This document shows, one piece after another, positions 9,431 through 50,584 of a stretch of 64,000 bases of DNA. Position numbers and translations under genes: made by a program. The DNA lies in contig JAJEKV010000004.1 in NCBI GenBank assembly GCA_021234155.1, positions 7,380,109-7,444,108 on the forward strand, given 5' to 3'. The notes beneath the pieces were generated by a model. It worked only from the letters and a program-made list of their open reading frames with translations, was not told where the DNA came from and ran no database searches. Within the stretch, counting starts at the first letter, position 1. Each line of letters starts with the position of its first letter. The DNA is from Isoetes taiwanensis (lineage: Eukaryota; Streptophyta; Lycopodiopsida; Isoetales; Isoetaceae).

Positions 9431-9900
9431 GCATCTTCAACGGCTCCTAGTAGGCAGTCCTTTGCCAAAATATCAGCTTTGACCTCTTTTCTGTTACAAA
9501 CAAAGGTTAGCTACAAATAATGACCAATCTTCCAATAGCTCAATGCAAATGATCATACATAGAATTTTTTACTAGTCCTTTAGGCCAAAGCTCACCACAG
9601 AAAGGAATTTGGAAGGATTAACCCTTAGAGAATCCTCTCAGAAAGAAACTCATAATTCAAGAAGGTATGGAAGAAAGTTAACAAACAAGGATTTGGAAAC
9701 GTAGAATGAGAAAAACCTGAATCACAATAACCGTATTTCTTCCCCTTATATGGAGATAAGGGAGCCTTTTTTCATAAAAGGTAAATGTACACATGCCATT
9801 TTAGGATCTCAACATTTTCCAAGGTTCCATATATAAGTCCCATGCAAATATCTCTTTTCTGCTTTCCGAACGATTCCCTCGAGCACCACCATATCCATTC
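9431..9900 (+). repeat. Paralogous flank block, copy A
   Basis: This block aligns by eye with the sequence left of the R LTR in unit 1 (scattered from about 12881 and continuous from about 13769 to 14267) and partly with 21888-22238. It shares the phrase CCTTTGCCAAAATATCA and ends in CATTC directly before the LTR start TGATAC. It is shorter than the 12881-14267 copy, consistent with internal deletion. It shows that the R LTR insertion site was duplicated at least three times in this window. Confidence 0.7.
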
Positions 9901-31270: not shown

Positions 31271-31602
31271 GGAAATGTATTTATCATTGGTCCCAAGTCT
31301 AGACGAAAAGGATTGGGTAACTCCATCTTGGCCAGCAAAGGCACTATAGTTGTGTCAAAATAAAGGCACAATTTTAATAATCAAAAGGAAAATTAACCTT
31401 AAAAATAATAAAGGAAATTCCAAGTATAATATCTCAAAGTTACCATGGGGTTACAGAACAATAGCTTTCTAGGGCTTTATAAACTATATTATCCAGTAAA
31501 GGTCAAATCCAATACATGACAAAGATAGTCAAAAGAAATTAATAAGCTTCGAGGTTCTATGAGATGTCGATTAGGGCACATCAAGCTTTTTAGGTTTTGA
31601 AC

Positions 31603-31789
<187 letters not shown>

Positions 31790-32214
31790 TTTTAACATTC
31801 ACGGAGATATTTTCACACTCTTTTTTCTATCTCTGGCTGTAATGGACATGATCTAGCCATGGGAGAGGGCAGCATGTAAGTTCACTACTGGTAATGTAAG
31901 GTAGAGCTAAATCCAGACTTATTGAAAGGTTTTTAGAAGTTGTGGTATTCAGATATTGGCTATGGCAGAGCATTAAGGAGATATGCTATTGCTGAATCAC
32001 GATTCTGGCAGATTTTGCAAACTAGAAGATCCTTCTTTGATTGATTCTTCATTCAGTAACTCTTCATTGCTGCCTTCAATATATCAAATATGACAACTTG
32101 GATTTGTATTAATTAGTCATTGTTACAGGTCCACTTGCTCATACTTCATCATATTATCACCTGCACATACTTGCTGGCCTATTTCTTCATGAAAACCTTT
32201 GCTTCATTGTCATT

Positions 32215-37209: not shown

Positions 37210-37214
37210 AGTGG
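37210..37214 (+). repeat. Element D target-site duplication, left
   Basis: AGTGG immediately before the LTR start TGTGACGTTCC; the identical AGTGG occurs at 50580-50584 after the other LTR. Confidence 0.92.
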
Positions 37215-38883
37215 TGTGACGTTCCAGCACAGTATACGCTCCCAGGACGTATACTGTACTGCCTCGTCACGCGTACACGCCACCCCGACTGACGTGTACG
37301 CCAACGTGTAGCTAGGCTAGTAGCCCTAGGGGGCAACGTGCAAGGAGTGTGCATTTATTAATGTGCACATTAAACAATGTGCACATTCACTTAGGTGCAC
37401 ATTTTCCCATATGGCCACTTCATGCCAAGTGGGCCACACCCATAGGTGCAATTAATGTGCACATTTTCCAATGTACACATTAATGTGGGCACACATTTCC
37501 ATGTGGGCACATTTTGCCACCTAGCCATTAAAGGCAAGTGGGCCCATTCCCAATTATCCCACATGCCTAAAGGGGATAATTGGAAACCCTAGCCAACCCC
37601 CTTGTCTATTAAGGGAGGGAAACCCTAACTTGCCCAATTTTCGTTTCTAGGGGTTTAGAACTCTGTTTTGGCTGCCTCAACAGCCAAAACCGCCTCCCAG
37701 ACTCTGCCTGAGAGAATTGCACCGTTAGTTCCCCCTGATTCGAGCGTTTCAGCAGGATGGTCGAGCTCAGGTCAGGAGGAGCCACTCAAGGATCAGGTAT
37801 TTGGCCAATTAGATAGTCTAAACCCTAATGCAGTCATAGAATCAGTAGGTTTAGCCTATTAAATTGCCCATAGCAGCCTTCTAGATCTCTAGATACCAGC
37901 CTCTAACTAAAGAACCTAACTCTATGCTGTAGATTAGATATAGTTCTTTAGTTCTTCTGTGATGTATATGGATGATGTATCTCTATGAACTCCTTGTATT
38001 GGGAAGGGGGGTAGAGACCTAAAGCTTGGTAGTAGATGCTCCTAGAGTAGCCTCTCTAGCACACTATAGATTCGGCCTGTGTACAAGAACCACACCTGGT
38101 TGTGGGTGAAGGGGCCAGACTGGCTGAGAAGGAGGTTCATGTCCTGACTCTTGAACGATCCCTCTGGTGTGTAAGGCCTACCAGGGATCATTGTGACTAG
38201 GTCTAATGGCTCACCACTGAGTGCGGGTGAGGCATGGACTCGACACCCGTGAAGTGGTGTACACTTTCCAGTGGGTTCAGTCGAATACGGGCAGTGGCCC
38301 TCTAGTCGCCTTGAGTCAGCATGTAGATCTCTGGAGGGGGTGATCCCTTCCTGCCCCATCGGAACTGGGAGGATGAAACCCAGGAATAGCCCTTTTGGCT
38401 ATGCATCCCGTGGCTCTGATGGGTCCCGACACTTTTCAGCCTACTCTCAAAGTGTGCAATGGGAGGGGCGGATGGAGTGGACAACCCTATGCCATGTTCA
38501 TATGCCGCCCAAATCCATTGCCATGAATTACATGCGCAATGAACTCACGGAGACCCAAGCCGTCAGTCATCCCCTTGAGTCTGAGCCTTGGGTAGAACTT
38601 CCCTTATGTATTGGCTCACCTTGTTTATGCAGATGTGATGGACCACCCTTCGAGGTGGATATGTGCTTATGTTGTGTACTGACATGTATGTTACGCTTCC
38701 GCAGCTAGGTAGACCCTGAGGGAGGCGGGGTAAAATGACCCCTTCACTCTTCCCCTTTGGAACCCGGCCACGGTTCGCAGATTATGTGGAGGGCCCATGT
38801 ATCGGCATGGAGCGGGTATGGGGATGAACTCTGTTTGTATACACGGTGAGTGCACCGTATGCGCGTAGTAGGGGACGCGTCCA
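37215..38883 (+). mobile_element. Element D 5' LTR
   Basis: About 1669 bp, starting TGTGACGTTCC. The end, ACGCGTCCA, is altered relative to the 3' LTR end ACGTCACA. Near its start is a cluster of palindromic TGTGCACA-type motifs (about 37358-37510). The LTR has no convincing gene; the longest minus-strand frame (38042-38359) recurs in the 3' LTR simply because the LTRs are copies. Confidence 0.92.
37358..37510 (+). repeat. Cluster of palindromic TGTGCACA-type motifs in LTR
   Basis: AATGTGCACATT, a perfect 12-base palindrome, and close variants (GGTGCACATTTT, AATGTACACATT, TGGGCACATTTT) recur about seven times over about 150 bp in the likely U3 region. The 3' LTR has the same array at about 49067-49220. 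Arrays like this often bind transcription factors; which one is unknown. Confidence 0.7.
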
Positions 38884-38886
38884 CGG

Positions 38887-38898
38887 TGGTATCGAGCA
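38887..38898 (+). other. Element D primer-binding site, initiator-Met type, one base short
   Basis: TGGTATCGAGCA, matching the usual TGGTATCAGAGCA except for one missing A, three bases after the LTR end. Confidence 0.75.
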
Positions 38899-39085
38899 AT
38901 GTTCTTGGAGACCAAGAGCAAAAAGCGCCATGTTCCCGATAGTACTAACGATAGGGTCCTTAAACCTCGAAAAATGGGAAATTTTTTTTCTCATTTTTGT
39001 AGTTTATGCTAAGCTAGTAATGATTAAAATGAATGAAAACATAAAAGATTAAGAATTGGTGAGCCAACATCCAAAAAGTAGGGTG

Positions 39086-39147
39086 GTCTCACACGCCGCG
39101 CCAGACGGAAATGAGATTTTCATTTTCGGCTGGCAGCAACGTGAGAC
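39086..39147 (+). repeat. Hairpin repeat H1
   Basis: First of four related 62-67 base inverted repeats. Outer arms GTCTCACAC...GTGAGAC, GC-rich shoulders CGCGCC, inner arms GAAAATGAGA...TCTCATTTTC in the best copies. H1 is diverged in the outer right arm. Lies 386 bp upstream of the MARTK start codon. Confidence 0.8.
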
Positions 39148-39281
39148 ATTCAATTTAAACACACCAAAAGTTGTAAATTACTTAAAATAGCTTGATAATT
39201 CTAAATTAGAGCTAAGAATCAAGTAGAATTAGCATGTTACTTGTTTAAAAAGTACAAAAAGTTAGTAGTGGGTCCCACCAT

Positions 39282-39346
39282 GTCTCACACGTCCGCGCCG
39301 GGACAGGAAATGACTTTTTCATTTTGGGCTGGGAATAGCGTGAGAC
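39282..39346 (+). repeat. Hairpin repeat H2
   Basis: Second copy, starting 196 bp after H1. Outer arms GTCTCACACG and CGTGAGAC; inner arms more diverged (GGAAATGA / TCATTTT). Confidence 0.8.
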
Positions 39347-39532
39347 CTTGCTTAATTAGGTGTTTTAGATGTTTTAAGCACCCTAAAAAAGGTAGTTTAA
39401 AAGTTGACCTAAAATTGACACTGTAAATAGACCTAGACCCCTCCCATTTTTAAGCTCTTCCTTAGAAGTTTGTTCAGATTCGCCCGAGGCGATCTTCCGG
39501 GCGCTTTAGTTCCGTCGACGAACCATCAAATG
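39347..39532 (+). promoter_or_regulatory. Candidate promoter and leader of the H3-fold gene
   Basis: Between H2 and the first ATG lies a TATA-like TGTAAATAGACC (about 39423), then a pyrimidine/C-rich stretch CCCCTCCCATTTTT, then the leader motif GGCGATCTTCC at 39488-39498, 35 bases before ATG. The same order occurs before the second accessory frame (TATAAATA, CCCCCCATTT, GGCGATCTTCC at 41440-41450), suggesting a duplicated promoter module. Confidence 0.5.
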
Positions 39533-40789
39533 ATGGCCCGCACAAAAGCGATGCGCAAGGAAGCCTAGCGAAGCGGATCCTCCAGCGCCCGGCAGTTCTC
39601 CGCCTCTTTTCGAGGGTCCTTCAAGAACGCCTTTCCGAGAAGGCTAATCTTCTTCGGCTTAAGATGCAGGATCGTGATCGGAGCGACCATACGGAGATCA
39701 TAGAGGGCTAACCGACCCGGATATCATGCATCAAACTCGGAGGAGATCGCACAGAGGAAGGAGGGAGCAGGAGCAACGGGAGCGGCGCAGGCAAATAATC
39801 AACGAAGAGCAACACCAGACTGAGACCCACCTGCAGGAGGAGCAAGGAAGGGAAGAGCAGCGACCGCCGACTCTTAGCCCCGCAGAAGAAGCAGATCTTG
39901 CGCGCTTCATCAGCAAGTATGAAGCCAAAGAGCGACGCCGGGAGCAGAGGACGAAGAATCGGGAGGACGACCCAACCACTGCCAGCGAGCCAAAGAAGAG
40001 GAAGGCCAAAGCCATTAAAGCAGGCAAGAGAAAAGTTGTGAAGGTCGGGAAGCGAGCGGTAGGGCCCGTCATCAACGAACCATCAGGCGAAGAGACCCCG
40101 CCTTCTACCGATGATTCGGACGAGGATTACGTCCCCAACACAGAGGGGGCGAGTTCTTCAAAACCCCCGCCCGTGGAGAAGGAAGTGCCCCAGCAAGAGG
40201 CACCTGAGCAGGTAGCACAGGAGCAGGAGGAGGCCGGACAGGCGGTGAAGCCCCCACCATTCCCGACGTGGGATAGAGTTAAGGCCCCGCGACCCCAACG
40301 GGAGACCCTGTCAAGGTCTATCAGAAGAGGATCAAGGAGCACAACACCTACATGGAGAAGTGGGAGGCATACACTGCCTACTACCAGGAGCACAGGGTGA
40401 GAACGATTGAAGGTGGACATCCGACAAGAAGCCAGACCTTGAAGCCGCCGCCACCCAGGCCCAAGCCTCCAAGAGCACCAGGGAAGAAGCGGTCCAACAG
40501 GAAAAAGTTGGAGGACAGAGCCCTCAAGGAGATCCGGCATTTCCAGAAGAGTTACGGACTCTTGATCCCCCGGGCACCGTTCCAACGCTTGGTCCGCGAA
40601 GTCATGCAGGAGTACAACACAGACATGCGCGTGACAGATGAGATGCTGTTGTGCTTGCAGGAGGCAGCAGAAGCAAAAATAGTGCAGCATTTTGAAGATT
40701 CAACGGCCTGCACAGTGCACGCGAAGAGGGTCACCCTCATGAGGCAGGATATGTATCTTGCTAGGCACATCAAGGGAGAGCGCCCTTGA
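39533..40789 (+). pseudogene. Histone H3/CENH3-like gene inside element D (one stop and at least one frameshift)
   Basis: The C-terminal part (40520-40786) is a histone H3 fold ending in a stop at 40787-40789. It has [10 protein letters not shown] and LLIP (the CENH3 style of the alpha-N helix), PFQRLVRE (40577-40600, canonical H3), a loop 1 of canonical H3 length, [18 protein letters not shown] (TLMR as in plant CENH3) and an [10 protein letters not shown] end. By-eye comparison with remembered plant H3 gives about 50 of 89 identical positions. Upstream, ATG at 39533 begins MARTKAMRKEA, the H3 amino terminus, then TAG at 39566-39568. An open frame 39726-40400 encodes a long charged tail with a bipartite-type basic nuclear signal (39990-40055) and an acidic DDSDED patch; a frameshift near 40290-40310 separates it from the fold. 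The tail is far longer than in host H3 or CENH3. No intron is evident. Whether the frame breaks are real or sequence errors is open. Confidence 0.88.
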
Positions 40790-40935
40790 AACCTTTTTGT
40801 AAATAAGAAACATTTTTGTCAATATAAAGAATTTTTGTGTAATTAATGTGTCTGATCTAGCTTAATTAAGTTAAGTTAGAGAATTCTAGTCTTTATTTTG
40901 GTTAAATTGGAAGCTTTTGAGCAAATTGAGACGAT
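40790..40935 (+). terminator. Likely 3' end region of the H3-fold transcript
   Basis: The AT-rich stretch right after the stop contains TTTTTGTAAATAAGAAA and AATATAAAGAATTTTTGTG, resembling plant far-upstream and near-upstream poly(A) elements. Inferred from composition and position only. Confidence 0.35.
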
Positions 40936-41002
40936 GTCTCACACGTCGCGCCAGGACAGAAAATGAGATTCTCATTTTCGGGCTGGGCGCAACGTGTGAG
41001 AC
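40936..41002 (+). repeat. Hairpin repeat H3
   Basis: Best-preserved copy. The outer stem GTCTCACACGTCGCGCC pairs with GGCGCAACGTGTGAGAC at 16 of 17 positions, and the inner stem GAAAATGAGA pairs perfectly with TCTCATTTTC. Lies 150 bp after the H3-fold gene and upstream of the second accessory frame. Confidence 0.88.
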
Positions 41003-41134
41003 CATGGCCAAAAATGCCCAAAACAGCCCCAAATCGACCAAATAAGGGGTCAATTCTGCCTAACTCGACGAGTTTAGTGGAATTGCAGCCTTAGATCACC
41101 CAAATTGGTCAAGTTTAACCCATTTAGAGCCCAT

Positions 41135-41201
41135 GTCTCACACGTCGCGCCAGGACAGAAAATGAACTTCTCATTATCGGTCTGGGCGCAACATGTGAGA
41201 C
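41135..41201 (+). repeat. Hairpin repeat H4
   Basis: Fourth copy, starting 199 bp after H3, nearly the same spacing as H1-H2. Outer arms GTCTCACACGTCGCGCC and GGCGCAACATGTGAGAC. Confidence 0.85.
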
Positions 41202-41381
41202 CTCGTACCATTTTCTTCACCAAATGATCTCCAACTTGTTGCAATAGGTTCATTAGTTATTCTTAACATGCTCAAACCCTAGAAGTAGTCTTCAAACTCG
41301 CAATTGCACCCTTTAATAGATCAGAATCACCTAATCTCAGTAAATTCTAGGTCATCCGAAAATTAGGGCTTCCCCCTTTTC

Positions 41382-41389
41382 TATAAATA
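41382..41389 (+). promoter_or_regulatory. TATA box of the second accessory gene
   Basis: TATAAATA in a CTATAAATAAGCCCCCC context, 122 bases before the first ATG (41504) and after hairpins H3 and H4. Its context matches the degenerate TGTAAATAGACC at about 39423 before the H3-fold gene. Confidence 0.55.
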
Positions 41390-41540
41390 AGCCCCCCATT
41401 TCTCATTTAGCACCCTGCAAGTTTGCTCTCCACTGCTTAGGCGATCTTCCAGCTCCCTGAGGCGCTTCTGCATCCGTCTGTTACTCCCTTCTTCGCTAGA
41501 TCAATGGCCACTGCTGACTTCAGGCGATGGTACAGCGCCA

Positions 41541-42224
41541 GTGTCCATGCTGCCGAGGGCGGATGTCGACGACATCTTCCAAGTCTTTGGGAAAGAAATT
41601 GATATCCAAGCCACGCTAAATGCAACCCCAGCATATAGGCAAGTGCTAGCAGAGTTTCAAGCTAGGGTAGGACCCTCCCTTGTTCAGGTCCCCCCTTGCA
41701 TAGGGTATTTCGTTCCCCGGCCATCCCTTCAAGCAGCCTTGGGCGATGTCCCCAACATCGCCAAGTACCTAACTAACAAGGCGCAGAGGCTGCCAGACTA
41801 CATGGTCCTGACAGCCAACAGAACTAAGTATTTCTCGTACACTGCTGCCCTAGCTATGTTCTTAACCCACCACGCCGAAAACCCATTGGGGGCAACCTCT
41901 ATCCCTCCGATGGAGGTGGACCCCATAGCAGCCCAAGCAGAAGAGCAGATGCTTTTGCAGTATTAGCAGGAGCAAGAAGCAAGAGAAGAAGAAGAGGAGT
42001 CGGACGACGAGGAGTACACGGAGCTCGACTCAGACGAAGAACGGCGCCAAGCGGAGCAAGAGCTGATCAACTTCGAGCAGAGCCGGCAGAACATCAGAGT
42101 TGCTCCCCCACTTGGGCTAGGCATCACAAGCCTAGCCCCTATCATCATCAGCGGAGAGGAGTATCTACTCCTCAGTGACATCCGAACCTTCCCAAATGCG
42201 AGGAGAGGGAGCTCCATTGGATGA
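41541..42224 (+). pseudogene. Second accessory frame of element D, acidic C-terminal region
   Basis: Open frame with one in-frame TAG (41964-41966). Before it are 141 codons with no recognised domain (starts MSMLPRADVDDIFQVF; blocks VPPCIGYFVPRP and NRTKYFSYTAAL). After it the frame continues to TGA at 42222-42224 with a strongly acidic run (about 41970-42060, rich in Glu/Asp with only scattered basic residues). The first ATG of the transcript, 41504, is in another frame whose codons run sensibly up to about 41560, suggesting a one-base indel near there. It is preceded by the hairpin/TATA/leader module. The acidic run resembles those of histone-binding proteins, but such runs are common, so function is not assigned. 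Confidence 0.5.
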
Positions 42225-42625
42225 AGCTTCCACCAACCGCTGCAGAACCGACATGGACGACTTCATCATCAGGGGAGTCTCGTGACTTCCCGCTTCAAGT
42301 CGGGGAAGCCGACACCTACAGGGGGAAGGCGACTCCCGACATCCGGGCATACAAAGAAGATAAGGCGTGTCATGGAGACAGGAGACCGCCATCCGGGAAG
42401 AAGAGTTCCTCGCCATTCAGAACGGTTGGGGATCGAGGCAAGACCACTAACATCCCGATGCCGAAGTCCCTCAACACCACCTCCAACAAGAGGAGGTGAA
42501 TTGACCTCGTGAGAGTCGACTCCACAATTGAAGATTACCGGAGCCGACGGAGATAGAGGTCGATGAATACGGACCTGCACGGCAGCCTGGAGGCCAATCA
42601 AGTGGGGAATCATCCATGACGCACA
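42225..42625 (+). other. Broken coding-like stretch between accessory frames
   Basis: GC-rich, with short overlapping open frames rich in Pro, Arg, Lys and Ser, none with a recognised domain. Composition matches the neighbouring accessory frames, so it is probably a frameshifted part of the same or next gene. Confidence 0.35.
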
Positions 42626-43024
42626 ATGACAGGTAAAGCTCGGTACTACCCGCCACCGCCGCTAGATGGGAGAATAGCGGTAGTACACCACAAATTCAGC
42701 CCCCGTGGGCGAGGAAGGAGTGTTCATGCTGATTGCACTCGGGCTTGGCAGCATGCTCGAATAGCAGCAAATGTCGACTATGTTGTCCTAGTCAAGAGGG
42801 CAATGGCACTCGACCTCTTCGACTTCGCCATACCTCATCGACGTCAGGCGAGATTAGCGGTGGCCGCGGCTCTCACATCTGACCGCAGAGTGGAAGACTT
42901 GGCGAGAGCCTTGCAGGGTGGCTCGTCAGCAAGCGTCTTCAGGAACTTGGGTCATTCGGTAGGAACGGCCCAAGTTAAGAAGTTCCTTGAGGACAACCCG
43001 TCTTACCGGCGATTTCAAGACTAG
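42626..43024 (+). CDS. Third accessory frame of element D, unknown function
   Basis: 132-codon frame, MTGKARYYPPPP..., ending at TAG 43022-43024. It has a basic, Gly/Arg-rich patch near residues 25-30 and an Ala-rich helix-like second half (about residues 65-130, including VEDLARALQGG and VKKFLEDNP). No homology recognised. It may be the 3' end of the second accessory gene if the intervening stretch is frameshifted. It is followed by an AT-rich region (43030-43110) that could end a transcript. Confidence 0.4.
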   Translation: MTGKARYYPPPPLDGRIAVVHHKFSPRGRGRSVHADCTRAWQHARIAANVDYVVLVKRAMALDLFDFAIPHRRQARLAVAAALTSDRRVEDLARALQGGSSASVFRNLGHSVGTAQVKKFLEDNPSYRRFQD

Positions 43025-43195
43025 TTAGACTCTTGATCCCGGAGACTTTTTGTACTAAAATATTATATAATATATGAATATAATCTCTGTTGCACTTTAA
43101 ATGTTTTGTTGATGTATTTTGCCCCACAACTATACCAACAAACATAAACAATGCAAGAGAACAAGGAAAACTAACCATATAGCCATGAATTACTT

Positions 43196-44417
43196 GTGTA
43201 TGCAGTTAGAGGCCTAGGCTCAGGGGAACGACAACGCCAAGACCTTAGGGAAGAACAGACCCCGCCCAGACCACCCCCGGCAAGGAACCTATTTGAAGAT
43301 ATGGAACCCATGACCCCAGAGGAGGAGATATCCCAGATGAGGACGGACCTTGAGCAGATAAAGGCTCTGTTAGCCGCACAAGCAGGAGCGGGTTCGGTGG
43401 GCAATGCTCAATTGCCACAAGCATCAGCTCGGAAAACAGGAAGGGACAAGAAGAGGAGCAAGAGAAGAAGATCCCCCAGCTCGGATTCCTCCGACTCAAG
43501 CTCGAACTTCGTTTCGGACTCAGGAGGAAGAAAGAAGCAGGCCCAGGACCGAACAGCCGCAAGGCAAAGGAACACTGAAGAGGGAAGGCAGAGGAACACC
43601 CCAGATGGACGACAAAGAGACACCAGGGCCTCTGACTACCAGAAGAAGGTAGATTCCGCGTTGGGCAATGTATGGAAGGCCCGGAAACTGGAACAGTTCT
43701 CGGGGGAGAACAGGTCAGGATTAGAAGCAGAAGCATGGCTGGACGAAATGAGTGAGTACGGCAATGCTTATGGCATGAAGGATAAAGACAAAGGAAGAGT
43801 GGCAAACACCAACTTGAAAGGAGCCGCGACGGATTTGGTGGAAGGGTTATGCAAAGGCACATGGCTTAAGCAGGGATGCTTGTAAGTTCAGAAAGTTTGC
43901 TAAAGCCTTCGCGCCATTACGCCCCGAGGGGAACATAAGTCTAGTATGATGCGCTAGCTTCTAATGAGGTTGCAAAGAAGGCAACAAATCTGTCCGTATA
44001 TACAGAGGAATTCATGAGGTCGAGGTCAGATATGTGCCAAAATTGGGTGAGAAGCATGCAGTAGAAAGCTATATTGAGGGGCTGAATGAGGAGATCCGCA
44101 AGCTTGTGAGGGCAATAAACCCTAAGACAGTATTAGAAGCAGAGTCCAAGGCTATAAGCTTGCAAGGGACGGGACCTCAGAATAGCGGGCAGAGGCAGCA
44201 GTATTTCCAGGATAAAGGCAAGGCGACAGGAAGCTATAGCCCTAGGGCAGCCAGTCCAGGTCCAGCTAGAGCCCCATATGGTGGCAAACTGTGGGGAAAC
44301 AAAGCAGAGAAGAAGCGTGTGTCCTTCAAGGACAAGCAGGGAGGGATCAAACTACTCCAAAGCAAAGGCGATCCTTTTGCAAAAGCGATGCCCAAGGAAA
44401 AGAGACAGAGTGCATAG
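43196..44417 (+). pseudogene. Element D gag (frameshifted)
   Basis: Two frames, 43196-43885 and 44034-44417. The first in-frame ATG is at about 43301 (MEPMTPEEEISQM), followed by a coiled-coil-like segment, a basic/Ser-rich stretch (KKRSKRRRSPSSDSS), and the start of the capsid-like domain (KLEQFSGENRSGLEAEAWL). The second frame holds the end of the domain (YIEGLNEEIRKLV). A clean CCHC knuckle is not visible; the region before the protease frame (44418-44482) has Cys and His codons in broken frames. Frame loss occurs around 43885-44030. Confidence 0.75.
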
Positions 44418-44482
44418 AAAAGCAGCTTTGCTTCAGTGTGCTTCCAGCCGTGCCATAGGGACGGCGAACCGTCCCTACGCCC

Positions 44483-45142
44483 ATGAGTGCAGCTACTAAT
44501 GAGTTGGGAGATTGGGACACTTTGTCTGACGACGACGGCGAGGAAGCCCGCGACTTCATTCAGGGTGAGTGTCATATCTTTGCCGCAATAGATACAGAGC
44601 AAGCAGAGAGCCAGTATAAAGTAATCTCCACAGTAGGGAAGGCCAAGGCCAAGTCCTTCATAGTCTTGATAGACTCGGGAAGTAGCCATAACTTTGCATC
44701 CCCCAGAATGGTTCAAATGTTGAAGTTGAAACCACTAAAGTCAAAGCCAAGGCCCGTTGTCTTAGCAAGTGGTGCAGTAAGACAGACGGCAGGCAAGACA
44801 ATTAACTTCGACATCGACTTGCCAGGGATTAAGATCCAGATGGGGGCAGAAGTAATGGGCATTGGCAAGTACGACTTGATCATAGGAATGGAGTACCTTG
44901 GACAAGCAGGGGCCATTATCGATTGTGGAAAGCGGAAGGTGACCTTCCCAACACCCGACGGCAAGATCATTGAGATCACAGGTAAAGAAGATATTCCCAT
45001 CATGCAGTGCATGTCTTCTAAGCGGCTGTTCAAGTGCATCAAGGGCGAGCAGGTGGCATACATCTTCAAGCTTGAGATTGATGAGCGTAATCGAGAGACA
45101 AGCAAGGAAGGCGGGGTGCTCGCCAAGTTGCCGGGCAAATAG
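44483..45142 (+). CDS. Element D protease (retropepsin-like aspartic protease)
   Basis: 219-codon open frame. The catalytic motif LIDSGSSHNF lies at about residues 61-70, and the second conserved block is IIGMEYLGQ. An Asp/Glu-rich start (DTLSDDDGEEARDF) links it to gag. In Ty3 elements it cleaves the Gag-Pol polyprotein. The frame is intact through the domain, then ends at TAG 45140-45142, before the RT, by an apparent frameshift. Confidence 0.85.
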   Translation: MSAATNELGDWDTLSDDDGEEARDFIQGECHIFAAIDTEQAESQYKVISTVGKAKAKSFIVLIDSGSSHNFASPRMVQMLKLKPLKSKPRPVVLASGAVRQTAGKTINFDIDLPGIKIQMGAEVMGIGKYDLIIGMEYLGQAGAIIDCGKRKVTFPTPDGKIIEITGKEDIPIMQCMSSKRLFKCIKGEQVAYIFKLEIDERNRETSKEGGVLAKLPGK

Positions 45143-46043
45143 CTTCGGTGATCCACGGAGTTCCATGATCTCTTCCCGGATGAGATCAAGCAGCTTCCTC
45201 CTTATAGGGAGTCGGTGTGAGATAGCACTTTCGAACCGAGGGAGCAAGCCGACAAGCAAGGCTCCATACGTAATGACGACGCAGAGTTGACGGAGCTGAA
45301 GAAGCAGTGCGAGGAGTTGCTCGACCTAGGCTTCATTAGACCTAGTGTCTCGCCATTTGGAGCGCCCATTCTCTTTGTAAAGAAGAAGGATGGCGGTTTA
45401 AGAATGTGCATAGACTATAGGCGGTTGAACAAGCACACCATTAAGAACAAGTATGCGCCCCGGATCGGGCGACTTGATGGATCAACTCCAAGGTGCAAAG
45501 GTCTTCTCCAAAATCGAACTTAAGGTCGCTATCATGGATCGGGATAAAGGAAGAAGATATCCATAAGACCGCCCTTGAACACCGGTATGGGCATTATATG
45601 AGTTCACGGTAATGCCTTTCGGCTTATCAAATGCCCCCCGACGTTCATGAGGCTCATGAACGACATCTTCGAGGAGTTTTTAGACACCTTTGTGATTGTA
45701 TTCTTTGATGACATTTTGGTGTATAGCAGATCCCTTGAAGAGCACGCATACAACACTTGAGAAGAGTGCTAGAGAAGTTGAAGAGGCACCAATTATGCGC
45801 CAAGTTGTCGGGTGTCACCAAGAACGGAGAAGGTAGAATACCTTGGTCATGTGATCTCGCCAGAAGGAATCTCGGCCAGATCCCCGCCAAGATTGAAGCC
45901 GTCATTCAAATGGCGGGCCACCAAGAATGTGCATGAAGTCAAGCTTTCTCGGCCTAGAGGATACTACAGTGAAGTTCGTGAAGAACTTTGCTAAGATAGC
46001 GCCCGATTAAACGTGACTTGACGAGGGCGGAGAAAGTGAAAGA
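45143..46043 (+). pseudogene. Element D reverse transcriptase (multiply frameshifted)
   Basis: Conserved Ty3 RT blocks in order but in changing frames: [33 protein letters not shown] (45287-45470), the MPFGLSNAP region (about 45615), the catalytic FFDDILVYS (about 45702-45730, FFDD in place of the common YxDD), then YLGHVISPEG (about 45838). At least four indels break the frame over 900 bp, far denser than in the adjacent RNase H/integrase, which is open for 1.3 kb. Confidence 0.85.
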
Positions 46044-47390
46044 TTGGGCAGAAGAGCATTGGCACAAGAAAGCCCGCTGTGGTTTGAATTGTTGAAGGAA
46101 GCTTTAACAACCGCCTTGATCTTAACCCCGCCGGACCCGGAGAAAGACAAGCTTGTAGCGACAGATGCGAGTAAGATAGCTACAGGTGCAGTGCTCATGC
46201 AAGAAGAGCGTGTGATAGCGTATGATTCCAGGAAGATGAACGACGCCGAAACGCGCTACCCCACCCACGATCAGGAATTGCTTGCGGTTGTCAGGGCACT
46301 AAGAATTTGGAGGCACTATCTTTTGGGAAGGAAGTTCCAGTTGGATACAGACCATCAGAGCCTCCAGTATGTATTCACGCAACCACACCTCAACCTGAGG
46401 CAGAGAAGGTGGATGGAGTTCCTTGAAGAGTATGACTTTGATATAGTCTACAAGCCAGGGAAGCTCAATGTGGTAGCGGATGCGCTTTCAAGGCATCCCT
46501 TGACAACTAGAGTGCATTGCAATGCAATTTCGACGCTCTCCAGCAACTTTGGTAAGAAGATTGAAGAATCCTTGCCAACGGATGTGGATTTCAGGGAAGT
46601 ATGGGCAAGCCTCTCTAGGGAGGCTAGAACAGATAAGGAGCGGGAAGCCTTTAAGCATTATAAGAAGGAAGGCAACCTGTTATACCATAAGAACAAGTTG
46701 TGCGTACCCGAATCAGCAGGTGTAAGGAAATTGATCCTCCATGACACGCACAACAGCCCAATAGCTGGCCATGCGGGATTCATGAAAACATATTTCAAAG
46801 TGCGCAGCAGCTATTATTGGCCAGGAATGAAGAAGCAAGTAGCTCGCTACATCAAGGAATGCCAGCTATGTCAGCAGACAAAGGCGGAACAGCTTCGAAT
46901 TCCGGGGGTCTTAGAGCCATTAGCGGTGTCAAACGCTAAGTGGGAGGTGATCAGCATGGATTTCATCACAGGGCTTCCAAGAACAGTGAGAGGAAAGGAT
47001 GCCTTGATGGTAGTGGTCGACAAGTTGTCGAAAATGGCACATTTTGTGTCTTGCAGGACCACAGACACGGCTATGGATACAGCAAAGCTCTTCACCAAAG
47101 AGATCTTCAGGCTTCATGGCATGCCAAGGGAGATTATCTCCGACAGAGATCCGAAGTTCATGAGTGCCTTCTGGCAAGACCTCTTTACGACGATTCAGAC
47201 CAAGTTATCCATGAGCACGGCATATCATCCCCAGACGGATGGCCAAACGGAGCGGACCAACAGGATTTTAGAGACATGCTACGAAACTATGTCTGGAATA
47301 AGCAAGGTATGTGGGAAGAATTTATTCACTTGGTGGAGTTTGCATACAATAGCACCAAGCAGGAATCATCCCAAATGTCGCCGTTTATGA
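46044..47390 (+). CDS. Element D RNase H and integrase (open frame)
   Basis: 448-codon frame. RNase H: LVATDASKIATGAVLMQ, then DTDHQSL and VVADALSRHP. Integrase: HHCC zinc finger (HNSPIAGHAGF ... CQLCQQ), core Asp in SMDFITGLP, second Asp in SDRDPKF and catalytic Glu in TDGQTERTN, so the D,D,E triad is complete. A frameshift at about 47280 moves the end of the core (VEFAYNST) into another frame that stops at 47413. It integrates the element DNA and removes the RNA strand during reverse transcription. Confidence 0.92.
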   Translation: MGRRALAQESPLWFELLKEALTTALILTPPDPEKDKLVATDASKIATGAVLMQEERVIAYDSRKMNDAETRYPTHDQELLAVVRALRIWRHYLLGRKFQLDTDHQSLQYVFTQPHLNLRQRRWMEFLEEYDFDIVYKPGKLNVVADALSRHPLTTRVHCNAISTLSSNFGKKIEESLPTDVDFREVWASLSREARTDKEREAFKHYKKEGNLLYHKNKLCVPESAGVRKLILHDTHNSPIAGHAGFMKTYFKVRSSYYWPGMKKQVARYIKECQLCQQTKAEQLRIPGVLEPLAVSNAKWEVISMDFITGLPRTVRGKDALMVVVDKLSKMAHFVSCRTTDTAMDTAKLFTKEIFRLHGMPREIISDRDPKFMSAFWQDLFTTIQTKLSMSTAYHPQTDGQTERTNRILETCYETMSGISKVCGKNLFTWWSLHTIAPSRNHPKCRRL

Positions 47391-47436
47391 TCATTACGGC
47401 TACCAGTGCCTAACTTCAGATACTTGGCACAATCCC

Positions 47437-48050
47437 GTGTCAAAAGTAGAGGTTTCGCAGCAGATGTTGGCCGACATGCAGCAGCTCGTGGAAGAAGTTC
47501 GAGGGTATTTGCTAGCAGCAAGAAGTCGACAGAAGAGCATCGCCGACAAGCATCGAACAGTTAGAGAGTTCAAAGTTGGAGATGATGTTTGGCTCAAGAT
47601 CAAGGTGAAGCAGGCGAAGCTCAGAATCGGGAATTGCAAGAAGCTTGCTCCAAGGTGGGCTGGACCCTTCAGAATAGTCAAGAGAGTAGGTAATCAATCC
47701 TACAAGCTAGACTTGCCAGCACACCTAAAGATTCATAAGGTCTTCCACGTGAGTTTGTTGAAGAAGCACACTCCAAATCCAGACGAAGTCTTGGACTCTC
47801 CAACGTTGTTGGAAATGACGGAGGAGCAGCTGGAAATAGTTCCAAAAGTGATTCTTGATAAAGCTTTCAAGAAAACGAGGAGATCTGAGTTTCTCCAATA
47901 TTTGGTCAAGTGGAAACACTTGCCAGTGGAAGACGCGACATAGGTACTTAAGAAAGAATTAGTAAAGCAGTACCCACAATTCATGGAGCAATGGGACGGC
48001 AAGGTCATCTCCGAAGAAATCGGCTCAGGCATGTCGATTTGTGTAGATTA
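47437..48050 (+). pseudogene. Element D integrase C-terminal domain and chromodomain (one in-frame stop)
   Basis: The frame contains the GPY/F-type module (WAGPFRIVKRVGNQSYKLDLP, then VFHVSLLKKH) followed by a chromodomain at about 47842-47990 (VILDKAF, then FLQYLVKWKHLPVEDAT). TAG at 47941-47943 replaces the position where chromovirus chromodomains have Trp; the frame then continues (ELVKQYPQF) to a stop near 48048. Chromodomains of this class are known to help target integration to marked chromatin, often by binding histone H3 tails. Confidence 0.88.
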
Positions 48051-48910
48051 ATTCTATGTATAGTTAAGATTAATCTACGCATGCAACCTATGCTAGGTAT
48101 GGGTCGCATGCGTTGTGACCGATGATGAGACCACTACGGTGATCTCTAGGGCGTGGTGTAATGTCAATGTAGGCATGACCGCGTTTCCGCTTGGGCGAGT
48201 AGAAGGTAGATTAGAAAGTCTACTTCTGTCCCACGGAAGTAGACGACCTCGAGAGAAAGGAGGTCATGAAGGAATGCACTGGTAGGAAAAGCACCTCTAG
48301 CCCCATATATGCTTTGATAGGAGGAATCAGGCCTTCACGCCCCATATACGGGAAGGACCTATCCTCCACGCTGGGCAACTAGGGTGTAGGCATGAGCGGC
48401 ATATAGGCATATAGGTGCTGTCTCCACGGCCATAATGGAAGATTCACCCTCTTCCTATGCCGGGAGATTAGCCATGCATCCATGTAGATAGGTGGGGTGG
48501 TCACCATATAACCAAAATTTTAGTAATAATTATAATGGTACTAACGTAGTGTCGACCTGCAAGCCAATAGAGCGCTCCGGAGGGCAAGGAGGTCGAGCTA
48601 CGAAGACTTGCAACACAAATTTTGTTGGAATGTGTTGCAAGGAATGAAGAGTACCTCGGACGCTAACTTTAATTTTGATAAACTTAATTGTCATGTTAAG
48701 TGAATTATTGAATAACCTGTTTTAATGATGCTATGAATTGATAAGTTATTTCATAATATAATGGCGTGATAATGTCCTAAAAATATTACCTTAAGGTAAT
48801 CGTAATAAATGTGTAAGTATTAGAGTAGCTTATCGTATGTATCAGGTTGATTGCAGGTTAGGATGATCCCAAGGTGGGGAGACCCACGATGCTGCGGACA
48901 GCATCATTTC
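48051..48910 (+). other. Element D 3' noncoding region
   Basis: 860 bp between the pol end and the polypurine tract with no credible open frame. It contains repeated CCCCATATA(T/C) phrases (about 48300-48360) and a second purine tract, AAGGTGGGGAGA, at about 48870-48881, nearly identical to the tract next to the LTR. Confidence 0.7.
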
Positions 48911-48923
48911 AAGGTGGGGAGAA
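48911..48923 (+). other. Element D polypurine tract
   Basis: AAGGTGGGGAGAA immediately before the 3' LTR, apart from one T all purine; primer for plus-strand DNA. Confidence 0.85.
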
Positions 48924-50579
48924 TGTGACGTTCCAGCACAGTATACGCTCCCAGGACGTATACTGTACTGCCTCGTCACGCGTACACGCCACCCCGACTG
49001 ACGTGTACGCCAACGTGTAGCTAGGCTAGTAGCCCTAGGGGGCAACGTGCAAGGAGTGTGCATTTATTAATGTGCACATTAAACAATGTGCACATTCACT
49101 TAGGTGCACATTTTCCCATATGGCCACTTCATGCCAAGTGGGCCACACCCATAGGTGCAATTAATGTGCACATTTTCCAATGTACACATTAATGTGGGCA
49201 CACATTTCCATGTGGGCACATTTTGCCACCTAGCCATTAAAGGCAAGTGGGCCCATTCCCAATTATCCCACATGCCTAAAGGGGATAATTGGAAACCCTA
49301 GCCAACCCCCTTGTCTATTAAGGGAGGGAAACCCTAACTTGCCCAATTTTCGTTTCTAGGGGTTTAGAACTCTGTTTTGGCTGCCTCAACAGCCAAAACC
49401 GCCTCCTTCTGCACTCGAGAGAATTGCAGATTAGTTCCCCCGATTGGCGTTTCAGCAGGATGGTCGAGCTCAGGTCAGGAGGAGCCACTCAAGGATCAGG
49501 TATTTGGCCAATTAGATAGTCTAAACCCTAATGCAGTCATAGAATCAGTAGGTTTAGCCTATTAAATTGCCCATAGCAGCCTTCTAGATCTCTAGATACC
49601 AGCCTCTAACTAAAGAACCTAACTCTATGCTGTAGATTAGATATAGTTCTTTAGTTCTTCTGTGATGTATATGGATGATGTATCTCTATGAACTCCTTGT
49701 ATTGGGAAGGGGGGTAGAGACTAAAGCTTGGTAGTAGATGCTCCTAGAGTAGCCTCTCTAGCACACTATAGATTCGGCCTGTGTACAAGAACCACACCTG
49801 GTTGTGGGTGAAGGGGCCAGACTGGCTGAGAAGGAGGTTCATGTCCTGACTCTTGAACGATCCCTCTGGTGTGTAAGGCCTACCAGGGATCATTGTGACT
49901 AGGTCTAATGGCTCACCACTGAGTGCGGGTGAGGCATGGACTCGACACCCGTGAAGTGGTGTACACTTTCCAGTGGGTTCAGTCGAATACGGGCAGTGGC
50001 CCTCTAGTCGCCTTGAGTCAGCATGTAGATCTCTGGAGGGGGTGATCCCTTCCTGCCCCATCGGAACTGGGAGGATGAAACCCAGGAATAGCCCTTTTGG
50101 CTATGCATCCGGCGGGCTACAGTCAGGTCCCGACACTTTTCAGTCTACTCTGCAAAGTGTGCACAGGAGGGGCGGATGGAGTGGACAACCCTATGCCATG
50201 TTCATATGCCAGCCAAATCCATTGCCATGAATTCTGTCTGCAATGAACTCTGGAGACCCAAGCCGTCAGTCATCCCCTTGAGTCTGAGCCTTGGGTAGAA
50301 CTTCCCTTATGTATTGGCTCACCTTGTTTATGCAGATGTGATGGACCACCCTTCGAGGTGGATATGTGCTTATGTTGTGTACTGACATGTATGTTACGCT
50401 TCCGCAGCTAGGTAGACCCTGAGGGAGACGGGGTAAAATAACCCCTTCACTCTTCCCACTGGAACCCGTCACGGTTGCAGTGTTATGTGGAGGGCCCTGT
50501 ATCGGCATGGAGCTGGTATGGGGGATGAACTCCTATTTGTATACGGTGAGTGCACCGTATGCGAGTAGGGGACGTCACA
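48924..50579 (+). mobile_element. Element D 3' LTR
   Basis: 1656 bp, TGTGACGTTCC to GGGGACGTCACA, with perfect 8-base inverted termini TGTGACGT/ACGTCACA. The first about 470 bp appear identical to the 5' LTR. Differences cluster at 49405-49450, 50105-50250 and 50450-50575. Confidence 0.93.
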
Positions 50580-50584
50580 AGTGG
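50580..50584 (+). repeat. Element D target-site duplication, right
   Basis: AGTGG immediately after the LTR end GACGTCACA, matching 37210-37214. It confirms a single complete insertion into the LINE. Confidence 0.92.

Follow-up and report, generated by a model that had tools for sequence, protein, structure and literature searches.

A captured histone H3 as the first gene of a Ty3/Gypsy chromovirus group in the plant Isoetes taiwanensis

Introduction

Histone H3 genes carried by transposons are known from fungi. One case is H3L, a gene resembling H3 that is borne by a hAT DNA transposon of Pyrenophora tritici-repentis; 26 H3L genes, with inserted segments in their N-terminal tails, and transcripts were reported. 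H3L matches neither H3 nor CenH3 completely, and its copies are thought possibly to be drifting (PMC3538342; here and below, papers are cited for selected passages). In Pseudocercospora fijiensis and its relatives (Pseudocercospora, Cercospora and Sphaerulina), hAT elements hold hundreds of inactivated H3-like pieces (PMC6710886). The element from Isoetes taiwanensis described here is likewise a transposon with an H3-like gene, and the long form of P. tritici-repentis also includes an ORF of unknown function. The fungal carriers, however, are DNA transposons with very similar recent or RIP-inactivated copies, whereas the Isoetes element has LTRs, a reverse transcriptase and an integrase, resides in a plant, comprises several diverged clades, adds long element-specific N-terminal parts to the histone and displays dN/dS ratios of 0.015–0.027. 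With the fungal copies inactivated or possibly drifting, capture of H3 alone need not mean function. That an element class unrelated to hAT has also captured H3 in a plant and rebuilt its tail lends added plausibility to the idea that the gene is useful to mobile elements.

Bracovirus H4 and other single viral histones are also captured host histones whose fold is conserved and whose tail is changed and extended, and they are said to enter host nucleosomes, but their carriers are DNA viruses or a polydnavirus, and the words retrotransposon and retrovirus are absent from the main text of the review concerned (PMC9145170). Within Ty3/Gypsy, a host-derived functional domain has become fixed in a group of orchid elements, although the cargo there is an m6A RNA demethylase (2-ODD) domain and the passages of that paper considered here hold no element-encoded histone (PMC9289625). 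Retrosat2, RIRE3 and RIRE8 are large elements with an extra ORF (ORF0) upstream of gag-pol, but ORF0 evolves faster than pol, whereas the Isoetes H3 core evolves no faster than RNase H-integrase; the word histone is absent from the main text on these ORF0 genes (PMC3485330).

The Isoetes element shares with plant Ty3/Gypsy chromoviruses of group II the LTRs, the target-site duplication (TSD), the primer-binding site (PBS), the gag-PR-RT-RH-IN order and the chromodomain at the integrase end, but the region separating its 5' LTR from gag holds two additional genes, of which the first encodes an H3. VANDAL elements are DNA transposons and their protein VANC is not known to be a histone. The likeness to VANDAL lies in an element-encoded protein, which counters silencing in the case of VANC, and in motifs within non-coding parts (PMC5735166, PMC10398659, PMC13317346). 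By analogy, the Isoetes element may work like VANC, as an anti-silencing factor, or like bracovirus H4, as a viral histone.

The first-pass annotation of this locus knew of no plant retrotransposon family encoding a histone. Likewise, the literature searched (titles and abstract starts, preprints and most subscription papers lying outside it) contained no histone encoded by a retrotransposon or a plant element, and the word histone is absent from the main text of the Isoetes genome papers (including PMC8566536) and from the consulted text of a 2026 review of plant gene capture (PMC13317346). Transposon-borne H3, on the other hand, was already in print for fungal hAT DNA transposons; what is new within the literature searched is the retrotransposon and plant carrier. 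Transposons are usually seen as targets of chromatin silencing, and a retrotransposon-made histone, if true, would be a heritable counter-move. Histone variants could then arise as selfish genes, and, together with the fungal cases, very different kinds of mobile element would have acquired H3 on separate occasions.

Structure of the window copy

The window is a 64,000-nt stretch of contig JAJEKV010000004.1 (assembly GCA_021234155.1, positions 7,380,109 to 7,444,108, forward strand), and the element within it is termed element D (Table 1). Its LTR pair, TSD, gag-PR-RT-RH-IN order and integrase-end chromodomain identify it as a Ty3/Gypsy chromovirus. The LTRs are 96.7% identical (blastn, 1673 columns), the outer termini read TGTGACG...CGTCACA, and the PBS is one that we take to be of the Met-tRNA type. 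The earlier placement of the H3 frame inside an LTR element with exact AGTGG duplications was borne out, both LTRs and both TSD copies having been read, but the stretch 39533–40789 is not a single open frame in this copy: the ATG at 39533 leads into MARTKAMRKEA and then an in-frame TAG. The very long charged tail that had been described is present in open relatives, at about 330–350 aa, but in the window copy it occupies a frame separate from that of the H3 core.

Table 1. Features of element D, in positions of the window
Feature	Position	Strand	Basis or remark
Left target-site duplication AGTGG	37210-37214	.	Read directly
Element D (whole)	37215-50579	+	13.4-kb Ty3/Gypsy chromovirus
5' LTR, starts TGTGACG, right end eroded	37215 to about 38877	+	blastn against 3' LTR
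Primer-binding-site-like TGGTATCGAGC	38887-38897	+	Letters read after LTR
Hairpin repeat 1	39078-39155	+	Fold z -4.9
Hairpin repeat 2	39270-39352	+	Fold z only -1.4
ORF1 start remnant MARTKAMRKEA, then in-frame TAG	39533-39568	+	Translation
ORF1 long charged tail, separate frame in window copy	39678-40400	+	Same stretch is the tail in open relatives
ORF1 3' part, H3 histone fold	40283-40789; core 40520-40786; stop 40787-40789	+	Pfam, PDB
Hairpin repeat 3 (repeat family D6)	40928-41003	+	Fold z -7.4
Hairpin repeat 4	41127-41202	+	Fold z -6.1
TATAAATA ahead of ORF2, possible internal promoter	41382-41389	+	Sequence scan
ORF2, broken in window copy	41504-43021	+	Comparison with open relatives
gag, fragmented	43175-44417	+	Ty3_capsid 0.0027 (below cut-off)
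Aspartic protease	44459-45142	+	RVP_2 2.5e-11
RT, RNase H, integrase, fragmented	45221-47390	+	RT_RNaseH 8.3e-35, Integrase_H2C2 2.1e-20, rve 1e-9
Integrase C-terminus and chromodomain, group II type	47353-47943	+	SH3_Tf2-1 1.5e-22
3' LTR	48924-50579	+	blastn, direct reading
Right target-site duplication AGTGG	50580-50584	.	Read directly

Several coding parts are recognised more readily in relatives. The gag of one relative (L018) matched Ty3_capsid at 1.9e-16 and Retrotrans_gag at 1.5e-15 in Pfam, and the chromodomain of another (L010) matched Chromo at 6.3e-8, the partial one of the window copy reaching 7.7e-5 and 23.0 bits, just below the cut-off of 25.1. The RT call rests on a sequence match, at about 70% to relatives, and not on Pfam. 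The gag-pol of the window copy is divided among several frames as well; the copy seems to be defunct, unless noise in the long-read assembly has corrupted its frames. The assembly is nanopore-based (PMC8566536), so some indels within repeats may be sequencing noise.

Histone identity of ORF1

The frame at 40283–40789 (+) matched PF00125 at 1.9e-28, with 99.6 bits against a curated cut-off of 26.4, and a search of solved structures with the window H3 found H3.3 as the best match at 7.3e-30, all of the best 60 chains listed being named H3 forms. The H3 fold first recognised in the frame ending at 40787 is thus confirmed, a better score as a non-histone is refuted within Pfam, and a non-histone fold is rejected on the Pfam and solved-structure matches. 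A chance frame is also rejected.

The core of the window type (hereafter W) shares 54% of its residues with host H3 and 52% with Arabidopsis CENH3. About 42% of its 86 positions differ from host H3, including R63P, L65A, Y99K, L103H and L109A, and such changes might hinder a normal nucleosome. At D106, C110, H113, R116, D123 and L126, which we take to be H3 interface positions, the majority residue equals that of the host in every clade. AlphaFold, run on the window H3 with an alignment holding 32 database histones, gave a poor model (pLDDT 58.7).

The same core had been read as a mixture of H3 and CENH3 features, and part of this reading stands. Loop 1 is not lengthened, the core aligning to H3 without gaps in the same 86-residue register as host H3, and the PFQRLVRE of ordinary H3 is present. 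The MARTK start, a 13-residue motif and TLMR are presumably shared with plant CENH3, the latter two with that of Arabidopsis. In a tree from which the host CENH3 is absent, W stands on a long branch inside no starred group; it joins two plant CENH3 sequences at 89/88, a value below the starred threshold, and the long branches make this placement unsure. A CENH3 origin of the W histone is unproven.

These features bear on the notion that the W H3 is a CENH3 descendant that mimics the centromere or kinetochore, driving centromeric chromatin or exploiting it. The two motifs and the position in the tree would agree with it, but the unlengthened loop 1, the near-equal identities to host H3 and CENH3 and the long branches speak against it, as do the fetched cores of the other clades, which are ordinary H3 although their RNase H-integrase is 77–79% identical to that of the window; a role of this kind is judged improbable.

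Copies and gene order in the genome

The I. taiwanensis assembly (1,658,258,908 bases in 1110 contigs) was searched with the window H3, and the best 150 of 11,164 first-look candidates were all 86–100% identical, the window included. By hand count, 135 of these 150 lacked a stop in the matched stretch, and open frames reached 488 aa. At least 150 W copies in the genome refute the idea that the fold occurs in one copy only, and a one-off capture of H3 is rejected on the same ground. A Pfam histone search of the genome placed the best 150 of 8705 candidates all above the cut-off, 145 of them stop-free by hand count. The top 15 spanned profile positions 2–122 and resembled host H3, and the seven of them that were translated (L001–L007) read as ordinary H3; the other 135 were non-canonical H3 in open frames of 108–494 aa and are only in part classified. 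All 20 loci fetched from this non-canonical set (L009–L028) had the H3 at the end of a 428–494-aa frame, with L012 running 22 residues further, and they fall into clades A (n = 11), B (n = 7) and C (n = 2). These loci and 14 loci of the W type (L035–L048) were selected for long frames, and related copies of the window element do keep unbroken frames. Candidate counts differ from copy counts: the demonstrated copy number is hundreds at most, and thousands are possible.

The order of the element is LTR, ORF1 (H3), ORF2, gag-PR-RT-RH-IN-chromodomain, LTR, with L010 lacking a recognisable ORF2. In the genome match lists, a W H3 lay 5.1–5.8 kb upstream, on the same strand, of at least 16 of 93 pol matches, against 0.045 expected from shifted positions, and no pol match had an H3 on the opposite strand or downstream. 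The worry that the locus is a misassembly joining a host gene to a transposon is accordingly unlikely to apply. ORF2 was compared in the same way, after setting aside 8 of its 92 stretches as fragmentary and, among 150 H3 rows, the 15 that are canonical: an H3 match was found 204–651 bp upstream of 19 of the 84 ORF2 matches, and within 3 kb the two were never arranged otherwise. In clades A–C, 18 of the 20 fetched 10-kb loci had gag or pol matches downstream of the H3 and on its strand; L011 and L015 had none within the fetched 10 kb, and L013 had an additional protease match further on, on the other strand.

LTR pairs with 91–97% identity surrounded all six other copies checked, and the TSD was exact in all three copies readable at both ends (GTGGC in L018, TTATC in L027 and GTGACC in L026). 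Directly after the LTR end, TGGTATCAGAGCC was present in five of the six, and L024 has TGGTATCAGAGCA adjoining the LTR in its place. The RNase H-integrase-chromodomain piece of L010 was at most 49% identical to the best 120 proteins. Together, these copies form a diversified Ty3/Gypsy chromovirus group that carries a captured histone H3 as its first gene.

The repeat pipeline used for the I. taiwanensis genome discarded repeats matching plant proteins (PMC8566536), and pipelines of this kind could conceal elements like this one and lead to too many H3 genes being counted for the host.

Two builds of the ORF1 protein

W proteins mostly start as MARTKQTARKP and continue through a charged stretch into the H3 core, with 328–350 residues ahead of ALKEIR in the two frames measured. 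Among the 14 W loci, the first residues were exactly MARTKQTARK in nine and MARTKQTTRK in two, and variant or not found in three. The tail carries S10P and a charged spacer of about 330–350 aa, and K4 and K9 are kept in a near-native context.

The ORF1 of clades A–C begins with a domain of about 200 aa, from which a linker and then a short tail lead to an H3 core that is near-canonical, the cores of the 20 fetched frames being 82–88% identical to host H3. The N-terminal domain (residues 1–270 of L027) had no relative among 5.8 billion proteins, and Pfam scans of four frames returned only the histone and weak chance rows; within the genome, it gave 3025 first-look candidates. ARKS was kept in none of the 20 frames within the 52 residues before TVALREIR, its site being mostly HP-x-TGGK or HP-x-TAGK, and K36 was replaced by R in 19 of 20. 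An ARKS string does occur just upstream of the counted stretch in L026 (clade C), as does RKS in some clade B frames. The ARTKQTARK start is missing from the fetched frames of clades A and B, and L027 (clade C) has a partial H3-like start, MARTKGTK. So many natural variants in one genome would make it testable which parts of H3 (K4, K9, K27, K36 or tail length) matter for silencing.

The RNase H-integrase of clades A, B and C is about 87–91% identical within and between clades and 77–79% identical to that of the window, while the H3 cores, 86–91% identical between these clades, fall to 52–55% against W. From this disparity, the W histone appears to be much more diverged than the cores of clades A–C, or to come from another source.

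The altered tails also bear on a possible marking of landing sites, in which element H3 on older copies would tether the integration complex and direct new copies into safe, element-rich chromatin. Both the H3 and a chromodomain are encoded by the element, and the integrase chromodomain of chromoviruses can steer integration, as in MAGGY (PMC3350952). ARKS, however, is missing from most clade A–C tails, and the group II chromodomain, examined by eye, keeps the tryptophan of KWK but lacks the first aromatic residue and has L as the third. With these cage residues missing, K9me binding is not expected, and the full H3K9me cage belongs to group I chromodomains only (PMC3350952). Self-targeting through the element's own chromodomain reading H3K9me is weakened by these residues, and the marking of landing sites is considered quite unlikely.

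Selection on the histone core

Nei-Gojobori dN/dS within clades A and B was 0.027 for the H3 core (59 of 60 pairs), 0.10 for the N-terminal domain (42 pairs), 0.137 for the tail (53 pairs) and 0.243 for the linker (47 pairs). Two of the 20 loci (L016 and L022) were dropped, and of the 60 pairs those whose dS was undefined or saturated were omitted. Between clades, the few values available were 0.042 for the core, 0.316 for the N-terminal domain, 0.280 for the tail and 0.508 for the linker. For W, with two of 14 loci (L039 and L043) dropped, the core gave 0.015 at a mean dS of 0.51 (66 pairs), the charged linker 0.203 (66 pairs) and the N-terminus 0.136 (56 of 66 pairs, 10 dropped). The yardstick, RNase H-integrase, came to 0.108 within (9 pairs) and 0.047 between clades (17 pairs), from the nine of 20 loci with a long enough stop-free piece. 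As the copies compared are the best-scoring, open ones, the ratios are biased downwards. With the ratios thus somewhat low, the pattern indicates that the H3 of the element is kept intact by purifying selection, which in turn suggests that the element uses its histone to act on host chromatin.

This constraint weighs on three other accounts. The captured H3 piece might be a passenger multiplied without function, as proposed for the decayed or drifting fungal hAT copies. Fragments of captured genes are common in plant LTR elements (PMC13317346), and the hAT-borne H3 copies of P. fijiensis are inactivated (PMC6710886). The dN/dS of 0.015–0.027 at dS of 0.5–0.7, albeit from chosen copies, and the open frames that recur, identically arranged, across several clades argue the other way, and the passenger account is disfavoured as highly improbable.

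The H3 might instead recruit host H4 into the particle, to compact the cDNA or aid its nuclear import. A nucleosome requires other core histones besides H3, which counts against such packaging, and no link to Gag was seen. In its favour, the H3 gene is the 5'-most of the element and is constrained at least as strongly as RNase H-integrase, and viral histones forming nucleosome-like particles exist (PMC9145170). On balance, packaging is regarded as decidedly improbable.

A histone mimic or decoy is the third account. The W N-terminus, equal to H3 residues 1–9 (ARTKQTARK), would bait writers or readers of H3K4 and H3K9 and blunt silencing at a distance, the fold being kept for stability or nuclear import. 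The exact or nearly exact H3 start of most W frames, the constraint on this stretch and the partial start surviving in L027, from another clade, are in keeping with a bait, but the core is far more constrained than the N-terminus and a bait needs no core, and the clade A and B frames lack the start. A decoy is considered unlikely.

A replacement histone as the proposed explanation

The best explanation, advanced tentatively and held at somewhat less than even probability, is that a replacement H3 alters the chromatin on the element's copies and resists silencing. Through its conserved H3 fold, the ORF1 protein would pair with host H4 and enter nucleosomes, and its element-specific N-terminal part would steer its deposition preferentially onto or near element DNA, with ORF2 perhaps helping in the manner of an acidic histone chaperone. 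There it would replace host H3, and its altered tail would lack the silencing marks in their normal context; element chromatin altered in this way would keep the copies transcribable and promote their spread. The proposed loss of marks is read from the absence of ARKS and the K36R exchange in clades A–C, and from S10P with the charged spacer in W. Two findings run counter to it: the surroundings of K4 and K9 in W are nearly native, although a simple 'unmarkable H3' should show the reverse, and the ARKS of L026 and the RKS of clade B, upstream of the counted stretch, argue against a clean loss.

ORF2 and control signals

In six open relatives, ORF2 encodes a protein of 443–469 aa with a pI of 4.4–4.7 and a net charge of -33 to -46, and two frames scanned matched no Pfam family. 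A more elaborate form of the replacement-H3 explanation would combine a replacement H3 bearing an element-specific or H3-mimic tail, ORF2 as an acidic chaperone and internal promoters into a two-gene chromatin module, a selfish system of histone variants that would write nucleosomes specific to the element across the genome; this larger proposal is rather doubtful.

The four hairpin repeats of the window are palindromic and about 70 nt long; one pair precedes ORF1 and the other lies in the gap from ORF1 to ORF2. A match to the repeat was found upstream of ORF1 in all 14 W loci, although it is weak in L044, at 70%, and truncated in L047 where the fetched stretch ends. The 20 clade A–C loci gave no match by blastn, the method on which this absence rests, as a simple hairpin scan recovers only one of the four window hairpins.

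TATAAATA stood at -109 to -111 in all 13 W frames with a recognisable start. From this placement, ORF1 and ORF2 in W probably have TATA promoters of their own inside the element. Before ORF1 in clades A–C, nothing like TATAAATA was found, and a TATA-like string occurred in 2 of 19, at about -238, with 0.12 expected per shuffled stretch. Ahead of ORF2, TATAAA was present at -85 to -87 in eight of the ten clade A copies whose ORF2 start could be identified.

Accessory proteins of the histone-carrying elements

ORF1 is the element gene that ends in the histone H3 core, and in the 20 fetched copies of clades A–C (L009–L028), chosen for long frames, its first ~200 aa form a new domain with the pattern RIPYPIFHFNERFL...YRYLGxG. 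No relatives of this N-terminal domain were found among 5.8 billion proteins with one query. Downstream, the ORF1 linker of L026 carries the string ARKSGSQYK ~50 residues upstream of KPHRYRPG in the H3 core, and some clade B linkers contain an RKSGAQYK-type string at the same distance from this motif. These strings may be a displaced fragment of the old H3 tail.

ORF2, the second accessory gene, precedes gag-pol and encodes a strongly acidic protein of 443–469 aa (pI 4.4–4.7), with no Pfam match in either of the two frames scanned. Preliminary matching across the genome gave 7160 ORF2 candidates, a figure that is not a copy count.

Putative control sequences

A TATAAATA box was located ~110 nt upstream of ORF1 in all 13 frames with a recognisable start among the fetched window-type copies (L035–L048), which share the H3 type of element D, and a further box precedes ORF2 in the window. 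These boxes are signs of internal promoters of the accessory genes within an LTR element. A match to the hairpin repeats was found upstream of ORF1 in 14/14 fetched window-type copies and before ORF1 in 0/20 of the other fetched copies (L009–L028). The hairpins are possibly a common control element, an RNA structure or a binding site for an element protein.

Features of element D in the window
Feature	Position	Remark
5' LTR	37215–38877	
Long palindromic hairpin repeats (n = 4)	39078–39155, 39270–39352, 40928–41003, 41127–41202	flanking the H3 gene
TATAAATA box	41382–41389	~120 nt upstream of ORF2
ORF2	41504–43021	open frames in L013, L016, L018, L023, L024, L028
3' LTR	48924–50579	

LTR differences, repeat annotation and neighbouring repeats

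The differences between the two LTRs of element D are indel-rich and clustered rather than scattered, as if assembly or polishing errors had affected one copy; LTR-based ages would be unreliable. According to the repeat-annotation passage of the genome paper, repeats with BLASTx matches to plant proteins were dropped before masking (PMC8566536); histone-carrying repeats could thereby have been lost, staying as H3 genes or unmasked sequence.

Upstream of element D, several kilobase-scale segments at 9457–32214 share ~85–97% mutual identity and look like nested or duplicated elements. A short tandem repeat at 31489–31791 translates in frame as repeated SIYL.
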